From positions 13,786,696 to 13,850,695 of the forward strand of contig CM037871.1 in assembly GCA_021292105.1 (NCBI GenBank): a stretch of 64,000 nt of DNA, read 5' to 3'. The notes beneath the pieces were generated by a model that saw only the letters and a list, made by a program, of their open reading frames with translations, was not told the DNA's origin and searched no databases. The DNA is from Anadara kagoshimensis (lineage: Eukaryota > Mollusca > Bivalvia > Arcoida > Arcidae). Position numbers and translations under genes: made by a program. Shown in pieces: positions 1-57,838 of this stretch (the stretch's first letter is position 1; each line of letters starts with the position of its first letter).

Positions 1-300
1 ACTCCTAAAAACCACTAAAACCCAAAATTTAAATCTCACCTTTCGGCACAGATAAAACACTTGATTAAGTTGGGCCCAGGGCAAGACTGTACTGTGCACA
101 GTCTGACTAGATCAAGTCCAAATTAATTTAAATAACTAAATAAATATTACTTTAACCTCTCATAACCCCTACTTTTAGCACAGATAAAATACTTGTTCAA
201 GTTGGGCCCAGGGCAAGACTACTGTGCACAGTCTGACTAGAACAAGTCTAAATTACAACCAGTAAATAACCATACAAATAAATATAACTACTATTCAGAA
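1..300 (+). repeat. Tandem 5' monomers of a non-LTR retrotransposon
   Basis: Two copies of a unit of about 132 bp stand head to tail. Each contains GCACAGATAAAA, then AAGTTGGGCCCAGGGCAAGA, then TGTGCACAGTCTGACTAGA. The first starts near 46 and the second near 178. The second runs into the start codon of the Gag-like ORF at 305. Tandem 5' UTR monomers that act as promoters are known in several LINE families; that role is inferred here. The array may extend left of the window. Confidence 0.7.
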
Positions 301-304
301 TAAG

Positions 305-1063
305 ATGACCAACAAAAGAACTTTGGCGGGGAGCTCCCCACAGGATTCGCCGGCTAAAAGGCCTAACATAAGGGCTAAGGGAGGCAGCCCCATACCACAA
401 GTCGTAGCCACCACAGTTCTGGCCTTTATTGTCAACATATATCCAAAAGATAGAAAGAAAAATGGCACTATACAAGAAGCAGACCTTCGTAACAAGCTTC
501 TAAATACTGTCAACCACAACCCCAGTAATTACAACATCATCAGGACTAACAATGGGTACCAGATACGGACCACCCAACAAACTTTAGTAGACCAAATTAA
601 AAAATTCACAACCATCAGTGGGGTAGATATCTGGGTCAGAGTTTCGGCAAACCTCATCAAGGGAGTCATTAAAAATGTCCCCCTGGATGCGGATTTGACG
701 CAACTCAAACAAAACAAAGAAATACATTCGGCAAGTAGACAAAAGAAAGGAAGAGAGAGACAAAAACAGTCGTTATTAACTTCTTTGGCAAAATACTACG
801 CACAAATATCACATTCCAAAATACTCTATATAATGTACACAATTATATACCTAACCCAATTAGGTGTTATAATTGTCAACTTTTCGGACACACCGCGCAA
901 AATTGTAAACGGAAATCAGTATGTGCCAAATGCAATAAAAACCACAAAACTACGGACTGTAACAACCCGAAAACCAAGAAATGCCATAACTGTGGTGGGG
1001 ACCACTCAGCAGCCTTTAAAAAATGTCCCAAATTCATTGAAATCCAAAAAACATTCAAAGTAA
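305..1063 (+). pseudogene. LINE ORF1 (Gag-like), frameshifted before its zinc knuckles
   Basis: The frame opens at ATG 305 with a basic N-terminus and runs 252 codons. The part recognisable as nucleic-acid-binding lies in another frame, at 865-1026: CYNCQLFGHTAQNC (CX2CX4HX4C), CAKCNKNHKTTDC (CX2CX3HX4C) and CHNCGGDHSAAFKKC (CX2CX3HX6C). This triple zinc-knuckle series is typical of ORF1 of I/Jockey elements, which coats the RNA. A frameshift between about 700 and 860 therefore separates the N-terminal part from the knuckles. The end of the 305 frame is a shadow of the knuckle region. Non-functional as it stands. Confidence 0.75.
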
Positions 1064-1066
1064 AGT

Positions 1067-1642
1067 AGAATCCCAAGAAAGGAAACATATAGAGACGCTG
1101 TACTTAACCAAAAAACCGCACCCTTAGTTAATAATCGTCAACCTAAAGATACAGATATGGTCAGCATCAACAAACTAGAGCTAGCATCATTCATTACACA
1201 AATTTTGGCTTCTTGAATAGACCCAAACCTTGAGGACAAAGTAAAAAATGACCATTTCAGTAGCATCACCCGGCAAGTGTCAAAAGCTGCCAAGGATCAA
1301 CTTAAAATAAATGTAGACCCCGGGGCAATTTTTAACAAAGTTTTTAAAACAAATGGGAACGAACCCGAAACAGTAATGGAAACCCCAGAAAACATTGATG
1401 AAGAAATACAAATTATACCAGACACACCGATTCAAAATACCCAGGCTCTTCCCGAAACACCAATTAGGCACAAAGCAAAAGCAAAAAGCTGCCGAACAAA
1501 ATTGGGGGATAAATTTAAAGACAAATTTCCCCGCCAAAGCTCTGAACCTAAAACAGATAAAACAGATTATAACATCCCCCTAAATTCAACCTCCCTTACG
1601 GCAGAAGTACAACTTCCACATCATCAAAAATACAATAATTAA
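1067..1642 (+). pseudogene. LINE ORF1 C-terminal remnant
   Basis: After the zinc knuckles the sequence holds low-complexity, charged coding-like DNA with stops near 1067 and 1214. The longest open part (1277-1642, 121 codons, no ATG at its start) is rich in Pro, Thr, Glu and Lys and has repeated D/E-TPI motifs (PDTPIQN, PETPIRH). It lies between ORF1 and the endonuclease ATG at 1699, so it is most simply the degenerate tail of ORF1. No domain is recognised. Confidence 0.45.
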
Positions 1643-1698
1643 ACACAATAATTCCGTTAATAAACAAAATCCGTAAATAACACTCCACCAACACAACA

Positions 1699-2384
1699 AT
1701 GTCTCTGAATATATTCCAGTGGAACTGCCAAGGACTTAAAACCCGTTTCAATCAATTCAAACAAATGTTAAATGAGCTAGATGAGCTCCCTCATGTTCTA
1801 TGCCTTCAGGAAACTTTTATAACTGATAAACAAAAATCTATCAAATTAACCGAATACCAAGAAATCATAAAACAAAGTAGGCCTGGATCTAAGGACCGCG
1901 GTGGGATCTCAATCTATGTTCAAAATAATTTGGCAGTGACTTCGGCAGACCACCTTGACGCCGACCCTTTCGAGGCCATCGGAATCAAGCTGGTCACCCC
2001 TATAGGCAACATACAAATCATCAACGTTTACAATCCATGCAAAAAATTTGATCTTCAAAACCTCAATAAACTCAAAAACTACATTACCTGTAAGGATAAC
2101 ATTATTACAGGTGACTTCAACGCTAAGCACCCTCTTTGGGGAAGTGACCAAACAGATCAAAACGGGAAACAGATTGTGGAATGGTTAAATTATAATGATA
2201 ACTTAGTTTTAATTAATTAATAACGGAGATCCCACCAGAATTTGTCCCGATACAGGCAAACTGACTCACTTAGATCTCACTTTAGTCAACTCTGAAATAT
2301 CGGCCAAAAGTAATTTGGATGTCCTCCCGGACACGCTCGGGTCAGATCATTATCCCACTCTCACCACAATCCAACAAGCTCCAT
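1699..2384 (+). pseudogene. LINE ORF2: AP endonuclease domain, one frameshift
   Basis: ATG 1699 starts an exonuclease-endonuclease-phosphatase fold that nicks target DNA for reverse transcription. Motifs visible: NIFQWNCQGL (start), LCLQETF (catalytic Glu), GGISIYVQNN, INVYNP, and TGDFNAKHPLWGS (D and N of the GDFNA motif). After the stop at 2218 the domain continues in another frame with THLDLTLVN and LGSDHYP (SDH motif, about 2341). Endonuclease landmarks are present in the right order, so the domain was complete before a single frameshift near 2205-2225. Confidence 0.85.
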
Positions 2385-4222
2385 TAAAATTAAAAATTCA
2401 ATTGCCGCAAAAATACATATATGAAAAAGCCGACTGGAATAGATTCAAGTACATATGTTCCCAAATACAGGACACAGACATACAACACCAAAACACACAA
2501 ACTTTCTCAGACAACCTATGCCGGGCAATTATAAACGAAGCTAATATGTCAATCCCAAAAACATCAGGGAAAACCACCTTTCGGCCATCAAATCCTGGTG
2601 GGACACGGAATGCCAAGATGCAAAAAAAAAAAAAAAAACGCAAGGCGCTCAATAAATTTAGGAAAACCAAAGAACCTCAAGATCATATCATATATAAAGA
2701 AGAAACCAAAAAACTCAAAAAAATCATACAAGAAAAGAAACAAAAAACTGGCAAACTTTCGTCTCATCCTTTAACAACAGAACAAACATTAGAACACTAA
2801 AAAAATTAAATCAATCCAGGGTCAAAACATCAGCAGATACCGGACTTAAATAAAATTAACATCACAAATAAGGAAAAGGCCGAATCCTTAGCGCAAACTT
2901 TCTCCAATAACAGCAGCAACTCAAACCTGGATCCTAAATTCAAAATTAATAAACAAAATTTCGAAACTCAACAAAAAGATAATATACTAGACCCTGGGGA
3001 CAACAACACCACCTTAAATGTCCCCCTAACACTTTCGAAACTCAAAATTGCCCTAGCCTCTAAACCTAACTCATCGCCCGGCATAGATAAAATCACATAC
3101 ACTCTAATTAAACACCTCCCTGAGAATTGTATCAAACTAATTTTAGAACTATTCAATCAAATTTGGAAAACAGAAGCCATGCCGCTCACCTGGAAAAATG
3201 CCCTAGTTATTCCACTACTAAAACCTGGAAAAGATAAAATGGACGTAAAATCATACCGTCCAATATCACTTACATCACATCTTTGCAAACTCATGAAAAC
3301 AATCATTAATAACAGGCTAACACACCATTTGGACTCAAAAAACATAATAAATAATAAGCAGAGTGGTTTCCGAAAAGGGCATTCCACCATTGGCCATTTA
3401 GTCCGCTTAGAAACTGAGATCAAAAACGCAATAGTAAAAAAAAGAATATTTAGTAGCCGTCTTTCTAGACATAGAAAAAGCTTTCGACCTAGTATGGCAT
3501 AAAGGCCTCCTTTATAAATTAAAAACCCATGGAATTACCGGCAACATTTATTCATTCATAAAAGATTTCTTACAAGACAGAAAAATCCAAGTAAAAATCA
3601 ATGATCAGACCTCAGAACTGCATAACCTAGAAAACGGTACGCCTCAGAAAAGTGTACTTTCTCCCACTCTTTTCAATTCATAATCAACGATCTATCAAAA
3701 ACTCTCACATCCAACACTCAAGATATCTCTCAATATGCCGACGACGGCGCCATCTGGCAAAGTTCACACAACCTGCAACATATACAAAAAAACATGCAGA
3801 AAACACTTAACTCTGTTCATGAGTGGTCTACCAACTGGGGATTTAAATTATCCAAACAAAAAACAATAGGTGTCATTTTCGGCCACAGACCAGAAAAAAC
3901 TATGCAACTTAAAATTAACAATCAATACATCAAATTTGAAGATATAGCAAAATTTTTAGGTCTAACTTTCGACAGTCGCCTCACATGGAAAGCACACATT
4001 AAAGAGCTAGCTAAAAACTGCCAATCAGCACTCAACGCCATGCGCTGTGTAGCCGGTACCGATTTCGGCGCTGATAAAAACACATTAAAACTTATGTACA
4101 ATAGTCTCATACAATCAAAACTTGACTACGGCTGTCAAGCATATAATTCGGCCTGCAAAACTAATAAATCTATTTTGGACAGAATTCAACATCAAGCACT
4201 TCGAATAACACAGGAACCATAA
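2385..4222 (+). pseudogene. LINE ORF2: linker and reverse transcriptase, frameshifted
   Basis: A Lys-rich linker with an A16 run near 2625 is followed by a non-LTR reverse transcriptase. Blocks seen: SSPGIDKITY (about 3070), WKNALVIPLLKPGKD, YRPISLTS, KQSGFRKGHST, then after a frameshift near 3450 the DIEKAFD and LVWHKGL blocks, then LSPTLF with another frame change near 3670, and the catalytic QYADDGAIW with YADD at 3734-3745. The thumb region KFLGLTFDSRLTWKAHI follows, and the frame ends at 4220 after HQALRITQEP. The catalytic aspartates are intact although the frame is broken at least three times. Confidence 0.85.
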
Positions 4223-4234
4223 AAAACACCCCAA

Positions 4235-4785
4235 TTGATAGTCTACATATTGAAGCCAACACTATACCACTCGAGCTCCGCAGAGAGCAACTATCTCTCA
4301 AATACTGGGCTAGAACACAGACAAAACCTATCACTTTTCCTGCAAACAAAATCACTGCCAACTGTGGAACATACACACACAAATCACACAAATGGGATTA
4401 ACACTCAGCACCTTACGGCTTTAAAATAAGAAAATCTATCGTCGCTGCAAAGCTACATGACAAAAAATAACCCTATACAAAACACCCTCCATCCCCCAGT
4501 GGATGCACATACCACCAAACATATCTGCACATCTCCATAGGATAACAGATAAACACCAAAACCCGGCTCAAGCCAAAGCTCTAGCACTAGATCACATACA
4601 CACACACTATAGTCAACACACAAAAATATACACAGACGGATCAAAAACACAAAATAAAACAGCCTCAGCATACTATGTAGCACATAACAGCTCAAGACCA
4701 GACATACTCAACCAGATACAGAAATACCAGGGTCCATGACACAGCTACACTGCGCATAGCTGAACCATCGCAAGTCAAAAGCTCG
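4235..4785 (+). pseudogene. LINE ORF2: truncated RNase H domain
   Basis: The stretch after the reverse transcriptase includes IYTDGSKTQNKTASAYYV (about 4627-4680), whose Asp lies in the first catalytic motif of RNase H. After a frame change, RVHDTATLRIAEP carries the expected Glu of the second motif near 4770. The rest of the domain is missing. The sequence passes within a few codons into the C-terminal end of a NADAR domain, so an internal deletion or template switch is inferred at about 4760-4785. Confidence 0.65.
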
Positions 4786-5494
4786 GTAGACAAAACATTT
4801 TCGGCAAACTTCTCATGCAACTTCGCGACGTCCACCTATCGCCTCCCCGTTCAGTCACTCCCTCTAGGCAAATAACTTTAGGCTTATACGGGTCAAGTTA
4901 TATCAAACATCTACAAAACTTCTATCAAAATCAAAATTATCCAACTTAAGGACCCGTTTTTTCGGCCAAGGTGGCATGACTGCTCTCTCCTTTAATAAAT
5001 CACTATTAAACCAATTAATAGAGTTTAAACCCATGGTAGCGTTCATCCTCCTAGCGGCAATGACATCACATCAAAAACAAATCCTTTGGCTATAACTCAT
5101 GGTCTCATGGGAATTCATGAGACCCTAAAAACGGCTGGAATTCAGCACGTATTTCATTGAGCTCGAGGTCCCCGGTCCTCAATGATAAATACGTGCTGAA
5201 TTCCATAAGAGACCATAAGAGACCCTCTCTTACCTCATAAGAGACCCTCAGCTGGACAAGGCCACATTTGATAGTATTCGGCGAACTATCAAAAAACAAT
5301 TAAAGGCCATATTGCCTAAGTACTTCCTTGAGCACTGCACTAAGTACCCAAGGTTTTACATCGGCGACAAAGTCCACTTTAATGCTGAAGGGTCAAAATC
5401 CGTTCTGCTGAACATTGTACGTTCAGCAAATAAAGCCATTGCCAACTATAGTCTGGTAGAGGATTTTGAAAAATCCGCTTATTTTTCGATGTAG
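4776..5494 (+). pseudogene. NADAR C-terminus plus SGNH-hydrolase domain, copy 1 (decayed)
   Basis: The piece starts with GRQNIFGKLLMQLRD (about 4789-4833), the C-terminal signature of NADAR/YbiA-like domains. It then continues as an SGNH-hydrolase-like domain: YGSSYIKHL (block I, about 4893), FFGQGGMTA (block II), SGNDI (block III) and GDKVHFNAEGSK (block V Asp and His, about 5362-5397). The order and spacing match the copy at 9304-10207. Several frameshifts and a palindromic scar (5137-5201) break it. The last part, 5312-5494, is open for 60 codons. All four SGNH blocks survive at sequence level, but no intact protein can be made. Confidence 0.7.
5134..5201. repeat. Short inverted duplication inside the SGNH remnant
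   Basis: GGAATTCAGCACGTATTT near 5136 is repeated in reverse complement as AAATACGTGCTGAATTCC near 5184, around a centre close to 5168. Two short direct copies of AAGAGACC follow (5203-5237). The second SGNH copy lacks the palindrome, so it arose in this copy, probably by strand switching during repair. Confidence 0.7.
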
Positions 5495-5499
5495 GGAGG

Positions 5500-6019
5500 A
5501 CAACGTGTTCAAAGGTGGCAAGTTATGTCATAACCTTCTTTGAACTTACTTTGGTAGAATCGGCTTGTTGCCAAGCAAGATTTCACCCAGGGGCCATTGT
5601 GGGTAGCTAAAGATCAATGGGTGCAAAGTTCAAGTGAAAATGCCCATATTGACCTATACACAAGTTCAAGGTGACTTACAGAAGTTTTTCTTTATACATT
5701 TTGTCTTCTAAATATGTAAATGGTATCTTCAAATTAATAGAAAGTCATATCCAACTAATTCAGTCACTTATTTTCAAAGTTTTCCATGAAAAATAAGATT
5801 AGACGCTTGCACAAATTTGACCTTTACAAATATGATTAATTGTGGCAAATAAATACTAGTATAAACACATTTGTGCATTTGAAATTGTTTCACAAAACTT
5901 TAGACTTCTGTTAAAATAATTTTACTGAATCATATTGCCCGCATTTATATAAGTATCCACTTAAAAAAAAGAAATCAAAGTACTGGTGGTACTGAAAGAT
6001 TTGTTAGCTATAATGACTG
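5500..6019. other. Non-coding stretch without recognised features
   Basis: AT-rich sequence with no long open frame on either strand, no tandem repeat and no terminal repeats that I can see. It separates the LINE copy from the next decayed gene. Confidence 0.5.
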
Positions 6020-7300
6020 TATCTGTATAATACTATCAAGTGTGTTCTCTTTTTCTGGTGGAAATATTAGTGAACTGTTGAAACACGAACTATTCCTAGT
6101 GCCGCTTTCTATACCTGATACACCAGGACCCTTGTTATCTGCAGCCGACGAGTCGGATCTTCAAAATATCCCTGAGGAAGAAGTTTGCATGGAGACATTA
6201 CTACCAAAATAATTAATGGTCAAACTTTAGTTGTAGCACTGGGAAAACGGAAAGGCATCAATACATTCGGCGAGTTAGGAAACGTACAAACTGTTTTTAT
6301 CCACGCGAAAGATAAATGTATCAAAATTGATGTCATTATGATAAGATATGACAACTAATCCATAAAAGGTGAAACCATCTAGATAAAGAGGATCAGGCCC
6401 CCGTTCTGTTAGAAAATTATTGATAATTAAAATGTCCCTCTGCCATCAAATTGGTAAGATTTTATCAGTCATCAAGAAAACAAATAGGATCTCGAAGTAA
6501 TCCAAGACACTTCTTAGCTTAGCTGAGGGTATCAGGGGGTCCAACAGACAGCATGTTTACTTCATACAGAAGAAGGAGAGTAACCGTTTTTAAAGCTTTA
6601 CACAAGGAAGCCGATACTAGAATTGTCCCCCATGGTGTTGATGCAAGGCTATAAAAGAACAGTTGTTGTCTGTCGTGATACTGATGACCTTATTCTTCTG
6701 TTGCTTTTAAATGCGGAAGTATGATTCCAGACCGGGACATCTAAAGTTCGTCCCTGTTCATAGCATAAAATTATCACCTCTGGAGAGGAATAAGCTCCCA
6801 GTATTCCATGCAATTGCAGACTGCAAGACTGTCAATTAACTTTCTAAATACAGCATTCCGTGTTTCCAAGAGGGAACTTTTCTAAATTGTGAGTGCAGAT
6901 GCCTTCATTGAATGTACCTAGCGAGGATTTCTCATCTACGATGTAAACTGTTCCTCTCAGGGGAAAAGTACAATTGAAAATTTGCTTCCAACATCATATG
7001 CAACCGACCTACATATTCAACGTGGATACTATTAAACTGCTGTTTGGCTGCATTTAGTTATACTGGTATTTGTTCCGGATCTCCCATCACCTATAGGACA
7101 CGGATGGTGCTAGTCTCACTAACTTGCGTACTGTGTGCATTTAACTTCCAGTGGAGGTTAGTCCATCGACAAAATCCCTCAAACTGGCTCTGTTCTGCGC
7201 AATTTTACCCCCTCTGTTTCAATTCCAGAAACTTGTCTCAAGGTGTCTTTGATTCTTGTGTGTTCCATTTCAAAGTTTTGTGATGTTGTTGGCAGGTGTC
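6020..7300 (+). pseudogene. Decayed transposon-associated gene of unknown function
   Basis: Fragments in several + frames recall an uncharacterised protein family common beside invertebrate transposons. Seen in order: PLLSAADESDLQNIPEE (about 6130), INTFGELGNVQTVFIHAKD (about 6258), KRTVVVCRDTDDLILLL (about 6655-6705), LPVFHA-like sequence (about 6797), and a distal part with DLPSPIGHGW-like residues (about 7070-7105). Stops and frame changes occur every 50-150 bases, so it is long dead. A Cys-containing stretch at 8090-8150 could be its end beyond a SINE insertion. The family assignment is from memory of pattern only and is weak; no biochemical role is claimed. Confidence 0.4.
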
Positions 7301-7769
7301 TTGATGGTGTGACCTATCCATCCCCAATGTCGCTTTTGTGTTTGTATTTCAAAGCGACCTTGTTTTGTGATCCACCATAAACTTTTCGTTACTAATTTTG
7401 TCTTGCATCTGGCAACAAGACCACGAACAATACTAGTTTTTATACTTAAATCTGAGTTTTTTCACAAATTAAACTTATTATTATTTTTATTTTTGCTTAA
7501 ATCTTACTTTGAACATTAACTTTTCTAAGACAATTACAGGTCAAAGATCATGAACAAAACTTAACTTTTTGGACTTAGGTTAAGTATTTTCCTGATGTTC
7601 ACGATTATTCTCGGACAGTTAAGTTAGTGCGAGTCTGAATGTGACTTAAAACAGTTTTAATGAGAAAATTACAAATTGGTTGATTGCATGGGGTTTTACG
7701 GGCTTTTACGTATTTCAGTCATATCAAGACGTCACCAGCTATATGTGAAGTGGCAGAAATTTTTACCTT

Positions 7770-8013
7770 TGCAGTAACTTAGGAAAATGTGCAGGAAAAG
7801 TTCCTTAACATGTTATACCCGCCTTGGCACGGGGGAATCGGTTTTTAAGATCTCTCTCAAAGGATCTCATGACTTTCGTTTCTAAATACCGAGTGTTTGG
7901 CAAAAGAAAAGTCACTACCTTATTTCAAGTCTTGATCAGACCCACTAGGGTTCGAACCCAGGACTGGCCACATACGGGGAGTGAGCGCTATACCAATTGA
8001 GCTACAGTAGGGG
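7770..8013 (-). mobile_element. tRNA-derived SINE (family with TTCGCCAAGCACTCGGC-like core)
   Basis: On the minus strand the 5' head at about 8010-7935 has an A box (TAGCTCAATTGGTATAGCG) and a B box (GGTTCGAACCC), as in a tRNA. It is followed by GACTTGAAATAAGG and TTGCCAAACACTCGGTATT, a core also found at 39036-39365 and 39541-39760. The head is not a convincing functional tRNA because the acceptor stem does not pair well. Internal pol III promoter boxes are present. Confidence 0.7.
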
Positions 8014-8079
8014 GTTTTAATGAGAAAAAATAACCTTTACCAAAACCATGTCATGCATTGCTGAAATGTAAATAAATCA

Positions 8080-8780
8080 TGTTGCACTACAAGTGGGTGG
8101 CTGTATGCACTTGCAATGGGGCCGTTGAACCGTTGATTTGTGGAATCCTTTGAATGATAATGCCACAGATAGTGATATTGATGAATGAAAAGAAATCGTT
8201 AGATGTGACTGATATTCCAGAGATTCTCGTGACTATGGCTTGCCGATTACAGAACTTGCAGTACTTTGATTTTAAACTTTTAATAAATTTCAAATTATCA
8301 GCTGGGTTTAAACAATATATTTGTTTTAATCACAGTCGTGTATTTACAATAGATTTATATTTTAAACATTTTGATTCATGCTTTGATGTTAAATGTATAC
8401 TTTTATTTTATTCTATCTTGAAGCTTGTGTCAGAATTTTGAAAAACAACATTGAAATATTTAAATTTTAGCCTAAACAGTCTCAATTAGCTTCCTAGTCA
8501 ACGTTAAAATACATGAATATGCTATGATTGCATGAAAACAGATTTATTTGATTTATTTAAATCTCAAAAAGTATATACATGTATTTAGACAGCTATACAC
8601 TAATAAAGATTAATTTTTAGAAAAAAACACTGACCTTTGACCTTTTATCTACTAAACCAAGGGTCGATCAGCTTGGCAACAGGTTGATTCTTGACCCCTA
8701 ACCTATGATGATAAAAGACAGCTATGTTGCCAGCTTTGAACACTCATGTCCCCCTATTGTGAAATTTCAATTTTTTTCCA
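8080..8780. other. Non-coding stretch; imperfect hairpin at about 8640-8725
   Basis: No convincing gene. An open frame at 8154-8441 looks like chance in AT-rich DNA. The stretch at 8640-8725 forms an imperfect hairpin (CCTTTTATC ... GATAAAAG arms with AAGGGTCGATCAG pairing to TGATTCTTGACCC). Its origin is unknown. Confidence 0.4.
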
Positions 8781-8789
8781 CCAGACTAC

Positions 8790-8917
8790 TAGGGGTGGTA
8801 ACTACCATGTTAAATGTTAAATGTTCTATGTTAAATGTTACTTGTACTCGTTTTAAATGTCCTGTCCTATGTCCTTAACTGTATTTAACAAGTAACGTAT
8901 GTCTGGTATGTCTAGTC

Positions 8918-8961
<44 letters not shown>
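8790..8961 (+). mobile_element. 3' end of a retroelement with poly(A), related to the 9304-10348 copy
   Basis: About 130 bp of TTAAATGT-rich sequence ending GTATGTCTGGTATGTCTAG then TCTTGT is followed by about 39 adenines (8923-8961). The same ending (GAATGTATGTCCGGTGGTGT, then AATGTCTTGTC and poly(A)) closes the NADAR-SGNH copy at 10348. The two are therefore 3' ends of one retroelement family, and this one is an extremely 5'-truncated insertion. Confidence 0.6.
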
Positions 8962-8962
<1 letters not shown>

Positions 8963-9303
8963 AGATTCCTTCTCCAAACCCTTTGCTTGTAATAAAACAA
9001 TGGGTATTGTTATACAGGGGCTCATAGCCCGTTATAACGTTAAATAACGATCAAATCAAAACCCACCATAACTCGCTTTTCGGCTTGATCGGCTTGTTAC
9101 AAAAACCTGTTTACACTCTGTAAATTATTTATAACTTTTATTTTTGATTTTTTTTTAATTTTTAATTTTTAGCTTTTATTTTTTAAAAAAATCTTCTAGT
9201 TAAATATAACAAAACCTATGATATAATTATTTTATTTTTTTCCTTTTTTTCACTCTTTCAAAGTAGTTTATCTTTATTTTTATTTGTCTCCATAAATCCT
9301 TAA

Positions 9304-9650
9304 TTTTATTTTTTTATTTTTTACACTGACTACCATGGCAAAGCTAGCTATCATGGGCTAAATCATCTGGCATATCAAATTAGGAACGCTTCAAAATCCA
9401 AATTCCTATCAAAACAAACTCGGACATCTTCGGACTGGCACTTTTCAAAATTAAAATTTCTCAAGGAGCTCCTGAACATTAATATTAAAACTTGTAGGGT
9501 ATTTAAGGAGCTCCTTTTAATCACTGGCAATCAAAATTTATACCACAATGTTCGAGACACATATTGGGGCACAGGGGACGAAGGTGGACAAAATCACTGC
9601 GGACAGAATGTTTTTGGCAATCTACTTATGCAACTTAGGGACTGTCACGC
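9304..9650 (+). CDS. NADAR domain (YbiA-like ADP-ribose N-glycosidase fold), 5' partial
   Basis: The frame is open from 9304 and has no ATG until 9628, so the N-terminus is missing. Residue numbers count from 9304. HLAYQ (residues 21-25) matches the EHAYQ motif. A Trp-containing helix (SSDWHFSKLKF) and LLLITGNQNLYHNV follow. Then comes the most diagnostic part, DTYWGTGDEGGQN (85-97), and NVFGNLLMQLRD near 103-114. The D-x-YWG-x-G plus N-x-x-G-x-LLM-x-LR pattern is characteristic of NADAR. Known NADAR proteins cleave N-glycosidic bonds in riboflavin-pathway intermediates or remove ADP-ribose from guanine as partners of DarT1-type toxins. Which activity this one had is unknown. Confidence 0.8.
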
Positions 9651-10207
9651 ACCGCCTCCCCTGGTTCAGGAACCCCCAAATTGTCTCCATTTAGAAATCT
9701 TCGGGTCTAGCTATATCAAACACCTCTCTAAATTTCATCAAACTCAAAAACATCCTAGCGCTAAGACCCGATTTTTTGGCCAAGGGGTAATGACTGCCAA
9801 CATGCCCAACACAACCCTACTAAATAATCTAATCAGTAGTAAACCCATGGTAGCCTTTGTAATGTTAGATGGCAATGACATTACCGCAAAAACAAAACCA
9901 ACCGATTTGGCCAACACTCATGGAAATTTATGGGAAACTAAAAAATGCTGGAATGCAGCATATTTTTATCATTGAGATCCCCACTAGGGGATATTTCCGA
10001 GACCCCTATCTTACCAAAGCCAAGTTTGACGCAATTCGCAAAGCTGTCAAACGCAAATTAAAGCTTCATCTAGCCAAGTACTGTCTTGAGAACGCACTGC
10101 AGTTCCCAAGACACTACAAGGCAGATCAGGTACATTTAAACGATGAGGGGTCAAAACTGCTATTGCTAAACATTTTCAGAGCGGCTAACAAAGTCACTGC
10201 CACATAA
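9651..10207 (+). pseudogene. SGNH/GDSL-hydrolase-like domain fused to NADAR, one frameshift
   Basis: This continues the NADAR frame. Blocks seen: FGSSYIKHL (block I, candidate nucleophile Ser about residue 136), RFFGQGVM (block II Gly), MLDGNDI (block III, G190 N191 D192), then after a single frameshift near 9930 the sequence continues as GMQHIFIIEIP and ends with ADQVHLNDEGSKLL (block V, Asp codon 10124 and His codon 10133). The four blocks in order define the SGNH fold, which covers esterases and lipases. Block I is GSS instead of GDS. Esterase-like domains are known in ORF1 of some CR1/L2 LINEs, but here the domain follows NADAR and precedes the poly(A). The frameshift makes this copy non-functional. 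Confidence 0.75.
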
Positions 10208-10348
10208 CATCCAAACTTTTTTGTTAAATTTTTGTGATTTTTGTTAAATGTATCAGTAACGTCCATTGTCTATGTCTTGTCATAAGTGTTGTAAATGTGA
10301 ATGTATGTCCGGTGGTGTAATGTCTTGTCAAAAAAAAAAAAAAAAAAA

Positions 10349-11130
10349 GAGAAGTAACGCTAGCCATTAATAACAAAAACCACCGAAAAAGCATAATATG
10401 CCCACAAAACCTAAGCAGAGCTGTCAGGGGCCGGCAGGCCCGATCAGCCGATAAAAAGCGACAAACAAGGAGGGTATTTTGTGCCGGAACATCGGAAAAT
10501 AAAAAGAAAAGAACCAACAAGTACTTCTTCTATTTAATTATTAGGTAAGTCACGTTTACCATTATTTTATTTGATATTTTGGAATTTAACAAAGTTAAGA
10601 AAAGTAATAATAATTTATTTTATTTTTGGAATTTTCCTATAAATCAGTTTCTACATTATTTCATTTTAACTTATTTTGCCTAAATACTTTTTGTAATTAT
10701 TTTCACATTTATTTCATCTTGCGATGGCGTCTGAATTGGCACTTAGTCTATTTTTATTTGTTTTGAATTTGAATTTCAATTGGAAGGAAAAACTAGAATT
10801 TTATGTAAACCGCAAACAGTAAAAATGATTTAAATTAATTATTTTACTTTAAATATGTATTTTAATGTTAATCAGTTTTAAACTGAACAAATAGATTTAA
10901 AATTTAGTTTTCAAATATTATCATGTTTAAATGTTGAGTTTTACAAAATTTAAATGTGGATTTTTCACCCACGTGAATTCTGAACACAAAATTGACTCGG
11001 TCAATTTTAATTTATAAAGTTTGCTTTAAAACGAATTTCGAATCAACTCAGTGTCCGCCATTTTGGACGCCAAGTTGTCACGATTAAAACACATTTAATT
11101 TTGAAGGGGTTTGATATATACTCAAACGAC
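10349..11130. other. Non-coding stretch
   Basis: AT-rich sequence without a recognisable gene. A GC-richer part at 10380-10500 precedes TTAGGTAAGTCACG near 10541, but no supported exon can be defined. Confidence 0.45.
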
Positions 11131-11312: not shown

Positions 11313-11708
11313 CCATAAAAAACGGGTTTTTCGTAGATTTAAAACGTGTCTTCTCATTAAAAGAAAACAGCTGATTGACCGAAACACAAGTTCACGTAAA
11401 TGTGTACAAGCGACAAAAGTAAAACTGCTGAAATATTAAAAGTAAACAATAGTCCGCAGGATACAAAAACAAAACAAACATTTTCAATTTAAACACAATG
11501 TATCTTCTTTTTAGAAGAAAAGTACAAAAGTATCAACTCAAATTAGAATCAACAAACAGTGTCAAATGAAACAAACAACTGTGAACTAGGTCAATTGTGT
11601 GACGTCAGTCTGGAATGACTTTTATGCTTTTATGACGTCACACTCATTCAATACGATTTTTATTGTATGACCGTATTACATGGATTATTGAGTAGATTAT
11701 ATAATAAA

Positions 11709-14700
11709 ACATACTACAGACCCGTACACTACATCCACCACCATACTCATGTTGTATATAACATACTACAGACCCGTACACTACATCCACCACCATACTC
11801 GTGTTGTATATAACATACTACAGACCCGTATACTACATCCACCACCATACTCGTGTTGTATATAACATACTACAGACCCGTACACTACATCCACCACCAT
11901 ACTCATGTTGTATATAACATACTACAGACCCGTATACTACATCCACCACCATACTCGTGTTGTATATAACATACTACAGACCCGTACACTACATCCACCA
12001 CCATACTCGTGTTGTATATAACATACTACAGACCCGTACACTACATCCACCACCATACTCGTGTTGTATATAACATACTACACACCCGTACACTACATCC
12101 ACCACCATACTCATGTTGTATATAACATACTACAGACCCGTACACTACATCCACTACCATACTCGTGTTGTATATAACATATTACAGACCCGTACACTAC
12201 ATCCACCACCATACCATGTTGTATATAACATACTACAGACCCGTATACTACATCCACCACCATACTCGTGTTGTATATAACATACTACAGACCCGTACAC
12301 TACATCCACCACCATACTCGTGTTGTATAACATACTACAGACCCGTACACTACATCCACCACCATACTCGTGTTGTATATAACATACTACAGACCCGTAC
12401 ACTACATCCACCACCATACTCGTGTTGTATATAACATACTACAGACCTGTACACTCCAACCACCACCATACTCGTGTTGTTTATAACATACTACAGACCC
12501 GTACATTACATCCACCACCATACTCGTGCTGTATATACTAGTAACATATTACAGACCCGTACACTACATCCACCACCATACTCGTGTTGTATATAACATA
12601 CTACAGACCCCTATACTACATCCACCACCATACTCGTGTTGTATATAACATACTACAGACCCGTACACTACATCCACCACCATACTCGTGTTGTATATAA
12701 CATACTACAGACCCGTACACTACATCCACCACCATACTCGTGTTGTATATAACATACTACACACCCGTACACTACATCCACCACCATATTCGTGTTGTAT
12801 ATAACATACTACAGACCCGTACATTACATCCACCACCATACTCATGTTGTATATAACATACTACAGACCCGTACACTACATCCACCACCATACTCATGTT
12901 GTATATAACATACTACAGACCCGTACACTACATCCACCACCATACTCATGTTGTATATAACATACTACAGACCCGTACACTACATCCACCACCATACTCG
13001 TGTTGTATATAACATACTACAGATCCGTACTCTACATCCACCACAATACTCGTGTTGTATATAACATACTACAGACCCGTACACTACATCCACCACCATA
13101 CTCGTGTTGTATATAACATACTACAGATCCGTACACTACATCCACCACCATACTCGTGTTGTATATAACATACTACAGATCCGTACACTACATCCACCAC
13201 CATACTCGTGTTGTATATAACATACTACAGACCCGTACACTACATCCACCACCATACTCGTGTTGTATATAACATACTACAGACCTGTACACTCCAACCA
13301 CCACCATACTCGTGTTGTATATAACATACTACAGACCCGTACATTACATCCACCACCATACTCGTGCTGTATATAACATATTACAGACCCGTACACTACA
13401 TCCACCACCATACTCGTGTTGTATATGACATACTACGGACCCGTACACTACATCCACCACCATACTCGTGTTGTATATAACATACTACAGCCCCGTACAC
13501 TACATCCACCACCATACTCGTGTTGAATATAACATACTACAGACCCGTACACTACATCCACCACCATACTCGTGTTGTATAACATACTACAGACCCGTAC
13601 ACTACATCCACCACCATACTCGTGTTGTATATAACATACTACAGACCCGTACACTACATCCACCACCATACTCGTGTGTATATAACATACTACAGACCCG
13701 TACACTACATCCACCACCATACTCGTGTTGTATATAACATACTACAGACCCGTACACTACATCCACCACCATATTCGTGTTGTATATAACATACTACAGA
13801 CCCGTACATTACATCCACCACCATACTCATGTTGTATATAACATACTACAGACCCGTACACTACATCCACCACCACACTCATGTTGTATATATCATACTA
13901 CAGACCCGTACACTACATCCACCACCTAACTCGTGTTGTATATAACATACTACACACCCGTACACTACATCCACCACCATACTCGTGTTGTATATAACAT
14001 ACTACACACCCGTACACTACATCCACCACCATACTCGTGTTTTATATAACATACTACAGACCCGTACACTACATCCACCACCATACTCGTGTTGTATATA
14101 ACATACAACAGACCCGTACACTACATCCACCATCATACTCATGTTGCATATAACATACAACAGACCCGTACACTACATCCACCACCATACTCGTGTTGTA
14201 TATAACATACTACAGACCCGTACACTACATCCACCACCAAACTCATGTTGTATATAACATACTACAGACCCGTACACTACATCCACCACCATACTCATGT
14301 TGTATATAACATACTACAGGCCCGTACACTCCAACCACCACCATACTCGTGTTGTATATAACATACTACAGACCCGTACATTACATCCACCACCATACTC
14401 GTGCTGTATATAACATATTACAGACCCGTACTCTACATCCACCACAATACTCGTGTTGTATATAACATACTACAGACCCGTACACTACATCCACCACCAT
14501 ACTCGTGTTGTATATAACATACTACAGCCCCGTACACTACATCCACCACCATACTCGTGTTGTATATAACATACTACAGACCCGTACACTACATCCACCA
14601 CCATAATGGTGTTGTATATAACATACTACAGACCCGTACACTACATCCACCACCATACTCGTGTTGTATATAACATACTACAGACCCGTACACTACATCC

Positions 14701-17700
14701 ACCACCATACTCGTGTTGTATATAACATACTACAGACCCGTACACTACATCCACCACCATACTCGTGTTGTATATAACATACTACAGACCCGTACACTAC
14801 ATCCACCACCATACTCATGTTGTATATAACATACTACAGACCCGTACACTACATCCACCACCATATTCGTGTTGTATATAACATACTACAGACCCGTACA
14901 TTACATCCAACACCATACTCATGTTGTATATAACATACTACAGACCCGTACACTACACCCACCACCATACTCGTGTTGTGTATAACATACTACAGACCCG
15001 TACACTACATCCACCACCATACTTGTGTTGTATATAACATACTACAGACCCGTACACTACATCCAACACCATACTCATGTTGTATATAACATACTACAGA
15101 CCCGTACACTACACCCACCACCATACTCGTGTTGTATATAACATACTACAGACCCGTACACTACATCCACCACCATACTCGTGTTGTATATAACATACTA
15201 CATATCCGTACACTACATCCACCACCATACTCGTGTTGTATATAACATACTACAGACCCGTACACTACATCCACCACCATACTCGTGTTGTATATAACAT
15301 ACTACAGACCCGTACACTACATCCACCAACATACTCGTGTTGTATATAGCATACTACAGATCCGTACACTACATCCACCACCATACTCGTGTTGTATATA
15401 ACATACTACAGACCCGTACACTACATCCACCACCATACTCGTGTTGTATATAACATACTACAGACCTGTACACTCCAACCACCACCATACTCGTGTTGTA
15501 TATAACATACTACAGACCCGTACATTACATCCACCACCATACTCGTGCTGTATATAACATATTACAGACCCGTACACTACATCCACCACCATACTCGTGT
15601 TGTATATAACATACTACAGACCCGTACACTATCCACCACCATACTCGTGTTGTATATAACATACTACAGACCCGTACACTACATCCACCACCATACTCGT
15701 GTTGTATATAACATACTACAGACCCGTACACTACATCCACCACCATACACGTGTTGTATATAACATACTACAGACCCGAACATTACATCCACCACCATAC
15801 TCGTGTTGTATATAACATACTACAGACCCGTACACTACATCCACCACCATACTCGTGTTGTATATAACATACTACAGACCGTACACTACATCCACCACCA
15901 TACTCGTTGTAATATAACATACTACAGACCGTACACTACATCCACCACCATACTCGTGTTGTATATAATATACTACACACCCGTACACTACATCCACCAC
16001 CATACTCGTGTTGTATATAACATACAACAGACCAGTTACACTACATCCACCTCATACTTATGTTGCATACAACATACAACAGACGCGTACACTACATCCA
16101 CACCACACTCATGTTGTATATAACATACTACAGACCCGTACACTCCAACCACCACCATACTCGTGTTGTATATAACATACAGACCCGTACACTACATCCA
16201 CCACATACTCATGTTGTATATAACATACTACAGACCCGTACACTCCAACCACCACCATACTCGTGTTGTATATAACATACTACAGACCCGTACATTACAT
16301 CCACCACCATACTCGTGCTGTATATAACATATTACAGACCCGTACACTACATCCACCACCATACCGTGTTGTATATAACATACTACAGACCCGTACACTA
16401 CATCCACCACCATACTCGTGTTGTATATAACATACTACAGACCCGTACACTACATCCACCACCATACTCGTGTTGTATATAACATACTACAGACCCGTAC
16501 ACTACATCCACCACCATATTCGTTTTGTATCTAACATACTACAGACCCGTACACTACATCCACCACCATATTCGTGTTGTATATAACATACTACAGACCC
16601 GTACACTACATCCACCACCATACTCGTGTTGTATAAACATACTACAGACCCGTACACTACATCCACCACCATATTCGTTTTGTATATAACATACTACAGA
16701 CCCGTACACACATCCACCACATATTCGTGTTGTATATAACATACTACAGACCCGTACATTACATCCACCACCATACTCATGTTGTATATAACATACACAC
16801 ACGTACACTACATCCACCACCATACTCGTGTTGTATATAACATACTACAGACCCGTACATACATCCACCACCATACTCGTGTGTATATAACATACAACAT
16901 ACCCGTACACTACATCCACCATCATACTCATGTTGCATATAACATACAACAGACCCGTACACTACATCCACCACCATACTCGTGTTGAATATAACATACT
17001 ACAGACCCGTACACTACATCCACCACCATACTCATGTTGTATATAACATACTACAGACCCGTACACTACATACACCACCATATTCGTGTTGTATATAACA
17101 TACTACAGACCCGTACATTACATCCAACACCATACTCATGTTGTATATAACATACTACAGACCCGTACACTACACCCACCACCATACTCGTGTTGTGTAT
17201 AACATACTACAGACCCGTACACTACATCCACCACCATACTCGTGTTGAATATAACATACTACAGACCCGTACACTACATCCACCACCATACTCATGTTGT
17301 ATATAACATACTACAGACCCGTACACTACATACACCACCATATTCGTGTTGTATATAACATACTACAGACCCGTACATTACATCCAACACCATACTCATG
17401 TTGTATATAACATACTACAGACCCGTACACTACATCCACCACTATACTCCTGTTGTGTATAACATACTACAGACCCGTACACTACATCCACCACTATACT
17501 CCTGTTGTATATAACATACTACAGACCCGTACATTACATCTACCACCATACTCCTGTTGTATATAACATACTACAGACCCGTACACTACATCCACCACCA
17601 CACTCATGTTGTATATAACATACTACAGACCCGTACACTACATCAACCACCATACTCATGTTGTATATAACATACTACAGACCCGTACACTACATCCACC

Positions 17701-18082
17701 ACCATACCCGTGTTGTATATAACATACTACAGACCCGTACACTACATCCACCACCATACTCATGTTGTATATAACATACTACAGACCCGTTACACCCACC
17801 ACCATACTCGTGTTGTGTATAACATACTACAGACCCGTACACTACATCAACCACCATACTCGTGTTGTATATAACATACTACAGACCCGTACACTACATC
17901 CACCACCATACTCGTGTTGTATATAACATACTACAGACCCGTACACTACATCCACCACCATACTCATGTTGTATATAACATACTACAGACCCGTACACTA
18001 CACCCACCACCATACTAGTGTTGTATATAACATACTACAGACCCGTACACTACATCCACCACCATACTCGCGTTGTATATAA
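11709..18082. repeat. 52-bp minisatellite, about 122 copies
   Basis: The unit begins ACATACTACAGACCCGTACA and continues CTACATCCACCACCATACTC, GTGTTGTATATA (52 bp). It is repeated head to tail for 6.37 kb with few substitutions. Rare variants recur together: CTCCAACC in place of CTACATCC, next to CATTACATCC and GTGCTGTATATA, at about 12.45, 13.29, 14.33, 15.47, 16.14 and 16.24 kb. This shows higher-order duplication of blocks of roughly 16-22 units. Short indels are concentrated at 15.6-17.0 kb. Open frames on both strands inside it are products of the repeat and are not genes. Confidence 0.95.
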
Positions 18083-18432
18083 CCAATTTGGTATATCGTT
18101 ATAACGATTTAGTATATCGTGGTGACGATTTAGTATATCGTTATAACGATTTAATATATCGTTATAACGATTTAATATATCGTTATTACGATTTAGTATA
18201 TCGTTATAACGATTTAGTATATCGTTATTACGATTTAGTTTATCGTGGTAACGATTTAGCATATCGTTATAACGATTTAGTTTATCGTTATAACGATTTA
18301 GTATATCGTTTTAACGATTTAGTTTATCATTATAACGATTTAGTATATCGTTATAACGATTTATTATATCGTGGTAACGATTTAGTATATCGTAGTAACG
18401 ATTTAGTATATCGTTATAACGATTTAATATTT
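18083..18432. repeat. 21-bp palindromic-unit array, block 1
   Basis: The unit TATATCGTTATAACGATTTAG (given in parts: TATATCGTTA, TAACGATTTAG) is tandemly repeated about 16 times. Each unit contains the perfect 14-bp palindrome ATCGTTATAACGAT; variants have GTGGTAACG or GTTATTACG centres. Because 21 is divisible by 3, a 126-codon heptapeptide-repeat frame stays open, but it is a consequence of the repeat. It directly abuts the minisatellite and ends with AATATTTTTTGCAAGTGTG and TAGGGGCTCCGTA. Confidence 0.9.
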
Positions 18433-39765: not shown

Positions 39766-39886
39766 AATTCTGTTCAGATAGATACACATAGCCACTTTTG
39801 TGTTTATCCAATGACTAGTCACTTTTATAAGACTATTTCATCATTTATTATTTAATTTGTAAACGAAATTTTCTCTTACATTTTAG

Positions 39887-40638
39887 GTAACAATCTGAAT
39901 CCTACTGCAAGCACGACATCTAGACTTATCGTGGACCCGTCAAGGCAATCCGTTTTCCAGAATATATACAGTCGCAAAGTTTGGGGGAATGCCGGCAATG
40001 GGTCTGGAGAAGGGTCATCACTTGGTTATACAATAGTACTCCGTAAACATTTGCTGGAATTCGTCTCCAAATACAACTTGTCTAGTATGATTGATATTCC
40101 CTGTGGTGGCATGGTATGGACAGAAGCGTTTCTAAAATCAGTGTGGCTGGAGAGACCGTTTTTTAAATACACCGGTATGGATATTACGCAAACTGTTGTT
40201 AATCAGCTACAGGAAAAGTGGAAAGGCAACGACAGGGTTACTATAAGGTTAGCCGACTTAGCGTCCCCATTACCTCGTATAAATGCAGATTTTGTTTTCA
40301 CGCGTGATACGCTTCAGCACTTGTCACTTAAAGATAGCTGTTTAGCTATAGACAATTTAATCAACCTTGGAGACAATGTTAAATATGTTTTAATTGGAAC
40401 TTATCCAAACAGTTTAAACAACACTAATGTAAAAACGGGACAATTTTATGCCACCAATTTACTGAAGACGCCGTTTAACTTACCAGAGCCGTTTCATGTC
40501 ATCACAGAACGGCATCAAGACTTCAAAGCAAAAGTAGATAGATTACATAAACATATGTATGGGTATCAAATGAAGGACCTACAATTACACAGGTGTAAGA
40601 TTTGTACTGCATATATAAAAAGAAATGATTGTCCATAG
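39887..40638 (+). CDS. SAM-dependent methyltransferase, terminal exon
   Basis: After acceptor TTTTAG the frame reads NNLNPTASTTSRLIVDPSRQ and stays open to TAG 40636-40638, about 249 residues. It is a class I Rossmann methyltransferase: SLGYTIVLRKHL helix, motif I MIDIPCGGMVW (about 40090), acidic loop YTGMDIT (40168), DLASPLPRINADFVFTRDTL with HL (motif IV region, about 40255-40325), and NLPEPFHVI near the end. The DIPCG/FTRD-x-x-QHLS/PFNLPEPF set is known from uncharacterised bacterial and invertebrate methyltransferases; the substrate is unknown. There is no ATG before the conserved part, so an upstream exon is needed; 19232-19337 fits in phase. The intact frame and AATAAA signal suggest a live gene. 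Confidence 0.8.
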
Positions 40639-56837: not shown

Positions 56838-57838
56838 TTTACAGTTATAAAGGTGGTAGTTTTGTTCAGTCGAGCTTGACCTGTTACATAATTCCAATTT
56901 GGGAGAGCAATAAGTGATGCTAGATCAACAAAAATCCAATCGGGGTTTTATATGTCTCTGGCTAAACGCAGACAGATTATAATCAGTAATTAGACACTAA
57001 TGACTTGAATGCATCCCGTAATAAAGTGGTGGGAAAAAAATAACATGTGTAGCAGCTAATTGAAAATTTGCACGAAATCATAATTTTATAAATGTTTCAA
57101 GTATTTATTTGAAATACGTTTTCTCGGGGTCTTATATGCTTACTCTAAGTTAAAATAAATATTAAATCAGCGTTTTTAAATATTCCATTCTAGCTATATA
57201 TTAATGTTTTTATTTACATATTCAATAATTCTTGAGAACAAAACTATAGCTATAGTTTTAAGTAAATTTTATTTAAAATTGTCCATTATAATAACTGTAC
57301 AAGTCAAAAGATGAAAAAACAACTTTCAATGTTTTTTGTAATAATCTATCCTTATATCATATAAAGTGAAAAACAAATGACTGACATTGAATCACTTGAT
57401 GCAATGGTTTTAGATTTCACATTAAACTGTTTTATGAGATATTTTTACACCACATGAGAGAAAGTTAAATGATTTCATTATGTAACAATGAATAAAATTC
57501 TTAACGAGAGAGAGGGAGGGGGTACATTATTATGATGATAGTCTTGACAAATTGAAAACATAACATTTGAACAGTTGAACTCTTTGAAAAACTAATTATG
57601 TATTACCATTGTCATTAAATACATTTATCGAATGCATTTAATGGTAATATATATGGTGTTGATTGTAGAATGTCTTCGTAATCCAACGTGTGTTAAAATT
57701 TTACATAGGTTGTTTAGTCATTGTTTTAATACAAGTATTAACTTGTTTATTATGTTTAAAAACAGGCAACTCCTATACATTGTTTGTATAATAACATCAT
57801 CAATAATTTAAATAACAAGCACGTTAAGTGGCTGGGTT

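Follow-up and report, generated by a model that had tools for sequence, protein, structure and literature searches.

A 64,000-nucleotide stretch of Anadara kagoshimensis contig CM037871.1 (the window) carries LINE coding sequence followed by a NADAR domain and an SGNH hydrolase, which raises the question of whether this pair is a gene of the LINE and what it could do for the element. We read the window as holding decayed copies of a LINE with three open reading frames (ORFs), and neither of these copies appears functional. The features are as follows.

59..118, + strand: M1 hairpin, first copy in the 5′ UTR (80.0 bits; training-set row of model R1; changes on both sides in 11 of 18 pairs)
191..248, + strand: M1 hairpin, second copy in the 5′ UTR (73.5 bits; training-set row)
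311..1068, + strand: ORF1 from the ORF list, frameshifted, with putative zinc knuckles in 739-1068 (zf-CCHC)
1681..2800, + strand: ORF2 APE-type endonuclease (EN), two frames (Exo_endo_phos_2, 51.4 bits; second frame 17.3 bits, below the cut-off)
2810..4222, + strand: ORF2 reverse transcriptase (RT), two frames (RVT_1, 39.0 and 29.6 bits)
4222..4679, + strand: ORF2, RT thumb with a remnant of RNase H whose C-terminal portion is missing (tblastn with the RNase H ORF of copy L028)
4722..4776, + strand: M1 hairpin in the intergenic region between ORF2 and ORF3, where RNase H meets NADAR (34.6 bits, E 7e-6; outside the training set)
4770..5448, + strand: ORF3 of family B, last ~20 NADAR residues and SGNH, frameshifted (homology to L027 and L039)
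5449..8787, no strand: insertion with inverted ends TAGTCTGGT/ACCAGACTA (site uninterrupted in L027, L029, L030 and L039)
8788..9059, + strand: 3′ UTR, A-tract and hairpin tail of copy 1 (78.8% identity to L027 3034-3267)
9304..9651, + strand: ORF3 of family A (copy 2), NADAR without N terminus and catalytic Glu (39.8 bits, profile 55-160 of 163; alignment A1)
9652..10207, + strand: ORF3 of family A, SGNH hydrolase, frameshift near 9868 (Lipase_GDSL_2, 13.4 bits, E 0.11; homology to L028/L027)
10208..10468, + strand: 3′ UTR, A-tract and tail of copy 2 (L038 6942-7564 matches window 9799-10468 at 88.9%)

A preliminary description had given copy 1 the order EN, RT, RNase H, NADAR end and SGNH. 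EN and RT were recovered at the scores listed, whereas RNase H is only a remnant and the SGNH part is frameshifted. In tblastn, residues 1-68 and 87-151 of the 415-residue L028 ORF aligned at 4222-4679, and the Pfam RNase H match in that ORF spans residues 129-258. The ORF3 part of copy 1 is 95% identical to L027 ORF3 over 58 aa and 90-93% identical to L039 in DNA. A 3′ end at 8790-8961, previously counted as a separate copy, belongs to copy 1 and was split off by the insertion, since in L027, L029, L030 and L039 the SGNH sequence continues directly into that found at window 8788 onward. This 3.3-kb insertion is probably a DNA transposon. Nor is the poly(A) the terminus, because about 100 nt common to the copies (8961-9059 and 10348-10468) come after the A-tract. 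The locus is duplicated at C15:14.68 Mb with 98-99% identity, so that copy is not independent evidence.

In copy 2, which had been described as NADAR followed by SGNH, the NADAR match exceeds the Pfam cut-off of 35.1 bits, although the catalytic Glu is missing; SGNH gives a weak Pfam match there and is clear from relatives. An assignment of copies 1 and 2 to one family was rejected at 68% DNA identity (4776-5164 against 9589-9979), giving families B and A, respectively. The internally deleted copy L038, which joins sequence matching window 1-2093 to that matching 9799-10468, suggests that the 5′ half of copy 1 belongs with the family of copy 2.

The predicted order RT, RNase H, NADAR and SGNH was found in individual copies elsewhere, as distinct from an element consensus. 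In L028 (C4:18.18 Mb), EN (79.2 bits), RVT_1 (33.6 bits), RNase H (52.9 bits) and NADAR (PF08719, 80.0 bits) follow one another on one strand, and an open RNase H frame leads through an intergenic region to an open 330-aa NADAR-SGNH ORF; its ORF1 is cut, its ORF2 lies in several frames, a MITE of ~1 kb precedes ORF3, and ORF3 is present a second time in interrupted form. In L039 (C5:1.98 Mb), RT and RNase H are followed by an intergenic region that contains three M1 hairpins, then by an ORF3 from 6652 with its N terminus deleted and by the 3′ tail. At C3:28.0 Mb, RNase H is followed by an intergenic region containing a ~2.4-kb gap and by ORF3 from residue 120 onward, which begins at base 28002065, the same base where the intergenic region ends. 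ORF3 is linked to the LINE, and in one copy it is open. None of the copies examined has all three ORFs open, and in the related LINE copy L049 the ~2.2 kb that follow RNase H contain no ORF3. The zf-CCHC scores of ORF1, 17.1 and 15.1 bits, lie below the cut-off of 20.8. The complete element would comprise a 5′ UTR with M1, ORF1 with zinc knuckles, ORF2 with APE endonuclease, RT and RNase H, an intergenic stretch in which modules are repeated, ORF3 with NADAR fused to SGNH, a 3′ UTR, an A-tract and a tail.

M1, a covarying hairpin, precedes ORF1 and, in L039 and the window, ORF3 too. L028, L027, L030 and L037 gave no M1 match, so M1 before ORF3 is not shown for family C. At the gathering score, Rfam gave no match in five sources, and a tRNA scan with bacterial settings found none.

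For NADAR domains, De Souza & Aravind 2012 is reportedly an early survey. At least 150 NADAR matches occur in the genome (150 of 341 candidates were scored). The Pfam calls held for NADAR in both the window and L028; those for SGNH (Lipase_GDSL_2, cut-off 32.9) exceeded the cut-off in L033 (36.8 bits) and L034 (35.2 bits) and fell below it in the window, L028 (26.9 bits) and L042 (31.5 bits). NADAR Glu33 and Lys40 of L028 correspond, by spacing (E+7) and not by alignment, to E88/K95 of the E. coli C7 NADAR. The catalytic Glu falls in a gap in window copy 2 and is Ser in the family-B copy L027. Glu137 of L028, a candidate for the acidic residue that known NADARs have in their last strand, is Gln in families A and B and V, N or R elsewhere. 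The SGNH catalytic residues in L028 were assigned by motif as S164, G188, N218, D303 and H306. The usual nucleophile motif of SGNH/GDSL enzymes is GDS; here it is GSS.

Between L028 and L027, the best pair, the NADAR part is under strong purifying selection, with 134 codons showing 16 synonymous and 2 nonsynonymous changes (dN/dS 0.03). The first SGNH part gave 0.06 and the endonuclease 0.32; constraint is weaker on the second SGNH part (0.36 and 0.40, the latter at p 0.12). Among solved structures, ORF3 matched YbiA (2b3w, E 1.1e-11), a NADAR (8bau, 3.1e-5) and weakly one other (0.82), with no SGNH match. Of 837 candidates for ORF3 from a large protein database, none reached E 1e-3. A search of viral contigs returned 18 stretches with one relative, covering NADAR residues 38-139 only, and in bacterial and archaeal contigs the one pattern used found no match.

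The same two-domain gene is present in terminal-inverted-repeat (TIR) transposons of this genome. One TIR element of ~3 kb, whose TIR is 26 nt in L033 and whose other loci have 112-nt inverted copies, has NADAR-SGNH as its sole long ORF, and the pair is also one gene of L045, a MULE-like element with TIRs of 83 nt (98%), flanked on both sides by ATTAACAAC, a target-site duplication read by eye. L045 5833-6180 matched no Pfam family and resembles by eye L035, in whose frame a MULE domain scores 32.2 bits. The reverse order, SGNH then NADAR, was seen in a large transposon-like ORF. The occurrence of the pair in LINE and DNA transposons suggests a tool against host defence shared by both transposon classes.

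How might ORF3 serve the LINE? NADARs take ADP-ribose off guanine in DNA and RNA (PMC11543638, PMC11833690), and N2-guanine ADP-ribosylation of DNA has been found in six clams (PMC11209040). ORF3 would be made from the element's own RNA, and its expression may be aided by M1 or by a TATA-like sequence that precedes it. Its NADAR would strip ADP-ribose from guanine in element RNA or cDNA, thereby countering a host ADP-ribosyltransferase, and the SGNH part might localise the protein or take off an ester-linked group; the gene would then be an anti-defence cassette handed between transposon classes. It is plausible that ORF3 counters host ADP-ribosylation, and we give an even chance to the whole explanation, a three-ORF LINE with an anti-defence ORF3. 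A more specific version, in which the cassette is shared by LINEs and DNA transposons (including the large ORF with SGNH first) and erases guanine-N2 ADP-ribosylation made on element RNA or DNA by CARP-1-type host enzymes, such as clams have, with LINE expression through M1 before ORF1 and ORF3, is doubtful. The genome gave no match to DarT, and none to PF22596, for which the control likewise matched nowhere.

ORF3 could instead be a housekeeping gene for retrotransposition, acting in RNP assembly, with SGNH targeting membranes, as proposed for ZfL2-1 ORF1p, and NADAR binding RNA or a nucleotide. Lipid binding and slow catalysis are described for the SGNH of ZfL2-1 ORF1p (PMC3905857), and in alignment A1 the SGNH Ser and Gly are kept in 7/7 rows, Asn in 6/6, and Asp and His in the 4/4 rows that reach them. 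We nevertheless consider this role unlikely, as it accounts neither for the same pair in DNA transposons nor for the fact that L028 and the TIR copies L033 and L045 retain the Glu and Lys of NADAR. Another candidate target of ORF3 is small NAD-derived signals or metabolites, such as ADP-ribose derivatives or riboflavin intermediates, in place of nucleic acid; small-molecule substrates have been proposed for other viral NADARs (PMC9503650), and we regard this as improbable here.

The presence of the pair in the ~3-kb TIR element and in L045 also bears on whether ORF3 is a LINE gene at all, since a TIR-transposon gene might have been inserted repeatedly beside or inside LINEs. In a NADAR tree of little resolution (7/10 inner branches open), family C was not separated from the TIR-transposon genes, while A and B formed their own clade (99/98). 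LINE domains lie upstream in 7/11 family-C ORF3 loci, whereas none of 28 L033-type loci is near them (238 hits; EN or RNase H within 12 kb, either strand). Among the seven, C5:1778197 has upstream only 43-46% relatives, and another element intervenes at C3:11.69 Mb; the C9 and C15 copies are near-identical. At the remaining four, neither EN nor RNase H lies upstream, and one of them has the intergenic sequence. Furthermore, the LINE-linked copies have LINE intergenic sequence and 3′ ends in common, and internally deleted copies retain both ends. The possibility that the pair belongs to another transposon, raised at the outset, therefore holds in so far as TIR transposons carry it and may be the origin of ORF3; that it is only a TIR-transposon gene was rejected on the linkage and the common intergenic sequence, and repeated insertion is very unlikely. 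Chance juxtaposition within repeat clusters, where elements are clustered and nested, mostly in a single orientation (L027, L037, L038), can hardly account for the same-strand order, the common intergenic sequence and the deletion junctions on C3, C4, C5 and C9/C15.

I-group LINEs (I, Nimb) combine a CCHC ORF1 with APE-EN, RT and RNase H. The present element resembles them in EN, RT and RNase H, which stand in this order in L028, and in the putative zinc knuckles of ORF1, and differs in its third ORF; I-group LINEs are not known to us to have one. In searches of open-licence PubMed Central literature, neither the NADAR-SGNH combination nor such a LINE ORF3 was found; NADAR in retroelements as such is already in print (PMC12477816), which limits the claimed novelty. 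CR1/L2 LINEs such as ZfL2-1 also encode an SGNH esterase, described with a coiled coil in ORF1 of two exclusively vertebrate groups (PMC3905857, PMC4120745), whereas here it is fused to NADAR in a 3′ ORF. DarT1-NADAR toxin-antitoxin pairs and the NADARs of RNA-virus polyproteins likewise place an ADP-ribose remover in genetic conflict (PMC11543638, PMC9503650), unlike our case in that this genome lacks DarT matches and ORF3 is not a polyprotein.

What is added is a LINE that has a third ORF on its 3′ side and in which a covarying RNA module precedes ORF1 and, in some copies, ORF3 as well. One genome carries the same predicted two-enzyme protein in transposons of two classes, strongly selected in the LINE, which makes a possible use of nucleic-acid ADP-ribosylation by animals against transposons directly testable with one purified 330-aa protein. 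If the cassette reading is true, an animal and its transposons are in an ADP-ribosylation arms race.

Close printed relatives are the Tx1 LINEs of another mollusc, Crassostrea gigas, which have a NADAR-like (YbiA-type) domain in ORF1, in an account that mentions no SGNH in its passages on them (PMC12477816); here L028 and L039 place the domain downstream of RNase H, in a third ORF. The same account places NADAR at the Pol N terminus of Ectocarpus Gypsy elements, also a capture by a retroelement, although an LTR element and again with SGNH unmentioned in those passages. A second LINE of the present genome, L044, with the order ORF1-like, NADAR ORF, EN and RT, fits the Tx1 report better than the ORF3 LINE does.

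Within the window, ORF3, a third LINE gene in which NADAR is fused to an SGNH hydrolase, was only weakly tied to the LINE, but copies across the genome established that it belongs there. The preliminary description of a LINE carrying NADAR-SGNH at its 3′ end was borne out by L028 and L039, copies of families C and B, rather than by the window alone. The assembly comprises 1,115,223,567 bases in 36 contigs, about 19 of which (C1-C19) look chromosome-sized because they have matches at tens of Mb. NADAR is very common in it, with at least 150 scored matches (150 of 341 candidates scored). The window spans C15:13,786,696-13,850,695, and its locus has a duplicate of 98-99% identity at C15:14.68 Mb. 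The features are as follows.

Window, 5′ of the 1681-4679 block: ORF1 with putative zinc knuckles
Window 1681-4679, + strand: endonuclease (EN), reverse transcriptase (RT) and cut RNase H
Window 4722-4776: 55-nt hairpin
Window 4770-5448: NADAR domain end and SGNH (copy 1, family B)
Window 5449-8787: insertion of 3.3 kb whose ends (TAGTCTGGT/ACCAGACTA) are inverted
Window 8788-9059: element 3′ end
Window 9304-10207: second ORF3 fragment (copy 2, family A), frameshifted, lacking the NADAR N terminus with the catalytic Glu
C4:18,178,500-18,188,499 (L028, family C): ORF1 remnant, EN, RVT_1, RNase H, intergenic region, MITE, ORF3

In L028, EN scored 79.2 bits, RVT_1 33.6 and RNase H 52.9, with zf-RVT alongside RNase H at 21.7 bits (cut-off 27.5). 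Next come ~1.16 kb of intergenic sequence and a ~1-kb MITE (about 6795-7822), which precede a 330-aa ORF3 (7887-8876; NADAR 80.0 bits, GDSL 26.9, under cut-off), and a second ORF3 copy, interrupted by an insertion, lies downstream. The same type of intergenic region follows RNase H at C3:11.70 Mb (93%, 1488 nt); at C3:28.0 Mb it follows RNase H and, after a ~2.4-kb gap, continues directly into ORF3, the two meeting at residue 120 on one and the same base (28,002,065). The final stretch of this region also precedes ORF3 at C9:3.94, C15:39.68, C3:59.36 and C3:67.65 Mb. Furthermore, L039 (C5:1.98 Mb) carries unbroken RT, RNase H, intergenic region, a family-B ORF3 with its NADAR N terminus deleted, and a 3′ tail. 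L038, in which window 1-2093 (94.3%) is fused to 9799-10468 (88.9%), is an internally deleted family-A element that keeps both ends. L027 and L029 show the beginning of a further ORF1 ~0.9 kb upstream of the family-B ORF3, and in the L049 copy ORF3 was not detected across ~2.2 kb downstream of RNase H. EN or RNase H matches occurred upstream, on the same strand and within 12 kb, at 7 of the 11 family-C ORF3 loci (6 within 3 kb), versus none within 12 kb on either strand at any of the full set of 28 L033-type loci; L033 is a TIR transposon carrying NADAR-SGNH, and its type is defined here by a stretch of at least 66% identity (Fisher p 2.1e-5, all 238 EN/RNase H matches used). As the C9 and C15 family-C loci are near-identical and hence dependent, they were merged in a smaller locus set, giving 6/10 versus 0/24 (p 1.6e-4). 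Two of the seven linked loci are weak: the LINE relatives upstream of C5:1,778,197 are all distant ones, and at C3:11.69 Mb another element intervenes. LINE-type NADAR-SGNH genes are clustered in L027, L029, L037 and L038, mostly in one orientation and with frequent internal deletions; such clusters possibly represent a preferred target or trap locus.

The two window copies had been described as sharing one order. Copy 1 indeed runs EN, RT, cut RNase H, NADAR end and SGNH, but copy 2 belongs to a different family; it is NADAR-SGNH, though not the nearly whole NADAR proposed, given its missing N terminus. The supposed separate third 3′ end at 8790-8961 is the split-off end of copy 1, as the junction without the insertion is present in L027, L029, L030 and L039. 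Nor is poly(A) the terminus: ~100 nt shared with copies elsewhere lie 3′ of both A-tracts, indicating that the A-tract is internal to the element. Within the insertion, 7930-8005 (- strand) resembles a tRNA-derived SINE with A and B boxes by eye, in which ARAGORN found no tRNA; window 7711-8003 and L033 6209-6505 are 73% alike.

A ~60-nt hairpin module (M1) occurs twice in the family-A 5′ UTR, three times in the L039 intergenic region and 3′ of RNase H in L049. With the structure drawn by hand from the same 11 sequences, several of them close relatives, 91.7% of cells pair and 11 of 18 pairs change on both sides. The covariation score was reached by 0/500 shuffles, and slid versions paired at only 21-37%; the number of pair types was not above shuffles (295/500 reach it). 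The M1 model matched window 4722-4776, no training row (E 7e-6), and since this hairpin is flanked by the RNase H remnant and ORF3, it appears to be the LINE's own intergenic piece. Among 39 sources, 24 matches had E ≤1 and 21 E <1e-5, most of the latter being rows of the training set or duplicates of these; in L029, one match lies upstream of ORF1 (60.1 bits). Zero matches were found in L027, L028, L030 and L037, which have LINE-type ORF3, or in L033-L036 and L040-L048, and an Rfam search gave no family at gathering score. An antisense match (L016 2051-2095, 35.8 bits) sits behind an ORF3 for which the 3.5 kb examined contained no LINE domain. Upstream of the L028 ORF3, a TATA-like CCTATAT after CCCCCC, MITE-interrupted, was seen by eye, and similar stretches lie upstream of an RT fragment in L039. 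As a guess, M1 might aid ORF1 and ORF3 expression, and the TATA-like sequence that of ORF3. The L028 intergenic region (5817-6436, 5638-6030) also holds a 78-nt hairpin three times (fold z -4.0, -1.1, -2.0) and a 92-nt repeat with no structure.

The gene also occurs in other transposons. In the L033 type (~3 kb), NADAR-SGNH is the sole long ORF and a 112-nt end is found in inverted copies at many loci. L045 has 83-nt TIRs with a 9-bp repeat on either side, and encodes an OTU protease (30.1 bits), a PHD-like protein (under cut-off) and NADAR-SGNH. A 1593-aa frame in L034 (5219-9998) has SGNH (35.2) then NADAR (79.7) and a weak DUF6589 match, and in a 1592-aa frame of L035 (5092-9867), NADAR (70.5) is followed by the domain of a MULE transposase (32.2). 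The LINE L044 carries a NADAR ORF (93.7 bits) ahead of EN and RT, an order near that of published oyster Tx1 elements; many near-identical NADAR ORFs in the genome may derive from L044-like elements. In this second LINE type (L044 2893-4716 and 3-2014, L005-L008), the stand-alone NADAR ORF lies between EN-RT and an ORF1 that is coiled-coil-like by eye. The NADAR tree separated families A and B well as a clade (99/98) but gave no firm order for C and the L033, L042 and L045 genes; transfer may have gone either way.

The numbers of synonymous and nonsynonymous changes between L028 and L027 were 16 and 2 for NADAR (134 codons; ratio 0.03), 13 and 3 for the first part of SGNH (0.06), 7.7 and 10.3 for its second part (0.36), and 30 and 38 for EN (0.32). 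Thus, in this pair, NADAR and the first SGNH part are constrained at least as strictly as EN. Other ORF3 pairs gave 0.07-0.40, and EN of L028-L029 gave 0.61; 12 of 14 comparisons, on partly overlapping pieces chosen by tblastn, departed from neutrality at uncorrected p <0.05. The ORF3 nucleophile motif is GSS, the usual SGNH enzyme motif being GDS. L028 retains SGNH Ser164, Gly188, Asn218, Asp303 and His306 and NADAR Glu33 and Lys40, the latter pair assigned by spacing to residues named in PMC11543638. In the seven-row ORF3 alignment, Lys is present in all rows and Glu in five (Ser in L027, a gap in the window row), L033 and L046 being near-identical.

A search for DarT found 0 matches in this genome, as did PF22596, presumably the accession of a guanine-ADP-ribosylating enzyme, whose control was likewise silent. 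In published work, only NADARs, among the hydrolase families tested, cleave ADP-ribose off guanosine in RNA (PMC11833690), NADARs also strip guanine ADP-ribose in DNA (PMC11543638), and a clam activity ADP-ribosylates guanine N2 in DNA (PMC11209040). A transposon-borne NADAR could undo guanine ADP-ribosyl marks on element RNA or cDNA. Human LINE-1 is restricted by the PARP-family protein ZAP; PMC4441479 describes its PARP domain as inactive and PARP1 as without effect, and so gives no direct support for anti-LINE ADP-ribosylation. For the SGNH of ZfL2-1, a lipid-binding role is proposed in PMC3905857; speculatively, that of ORF3 might remove an ester-linked group. NADAR in a LINE is not new, being in print for oyster Tx1 ORF1 (PMC12477816), but the NADAR-SGNH combination, presented earlier as undescribed, was not found in the literature searched: among the matches listed, no title or abstract named a transposon that combines NADAR and SGNH, or a LINE whose third ORF follows RNase H.

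Elsewhere in the window, a satellite array (11704-18083; 52-bp unit, 123 copies, 94% matches) is followed by a 21-bp array up to 18737. A 260-aa ORF (39856-40638) matched Methyltransf_11 at 24.5 bits, exceeding the cut-off of 21.2. Fragments of an integrase-like element (45993-46373, rve 19.3 bits) and of another RT (57812-58129, 24.4 bits) scored under cut-off, and a Transposase_1 element fragment (60088-60600) scored 25.8 bits, above the cut-off of 24.
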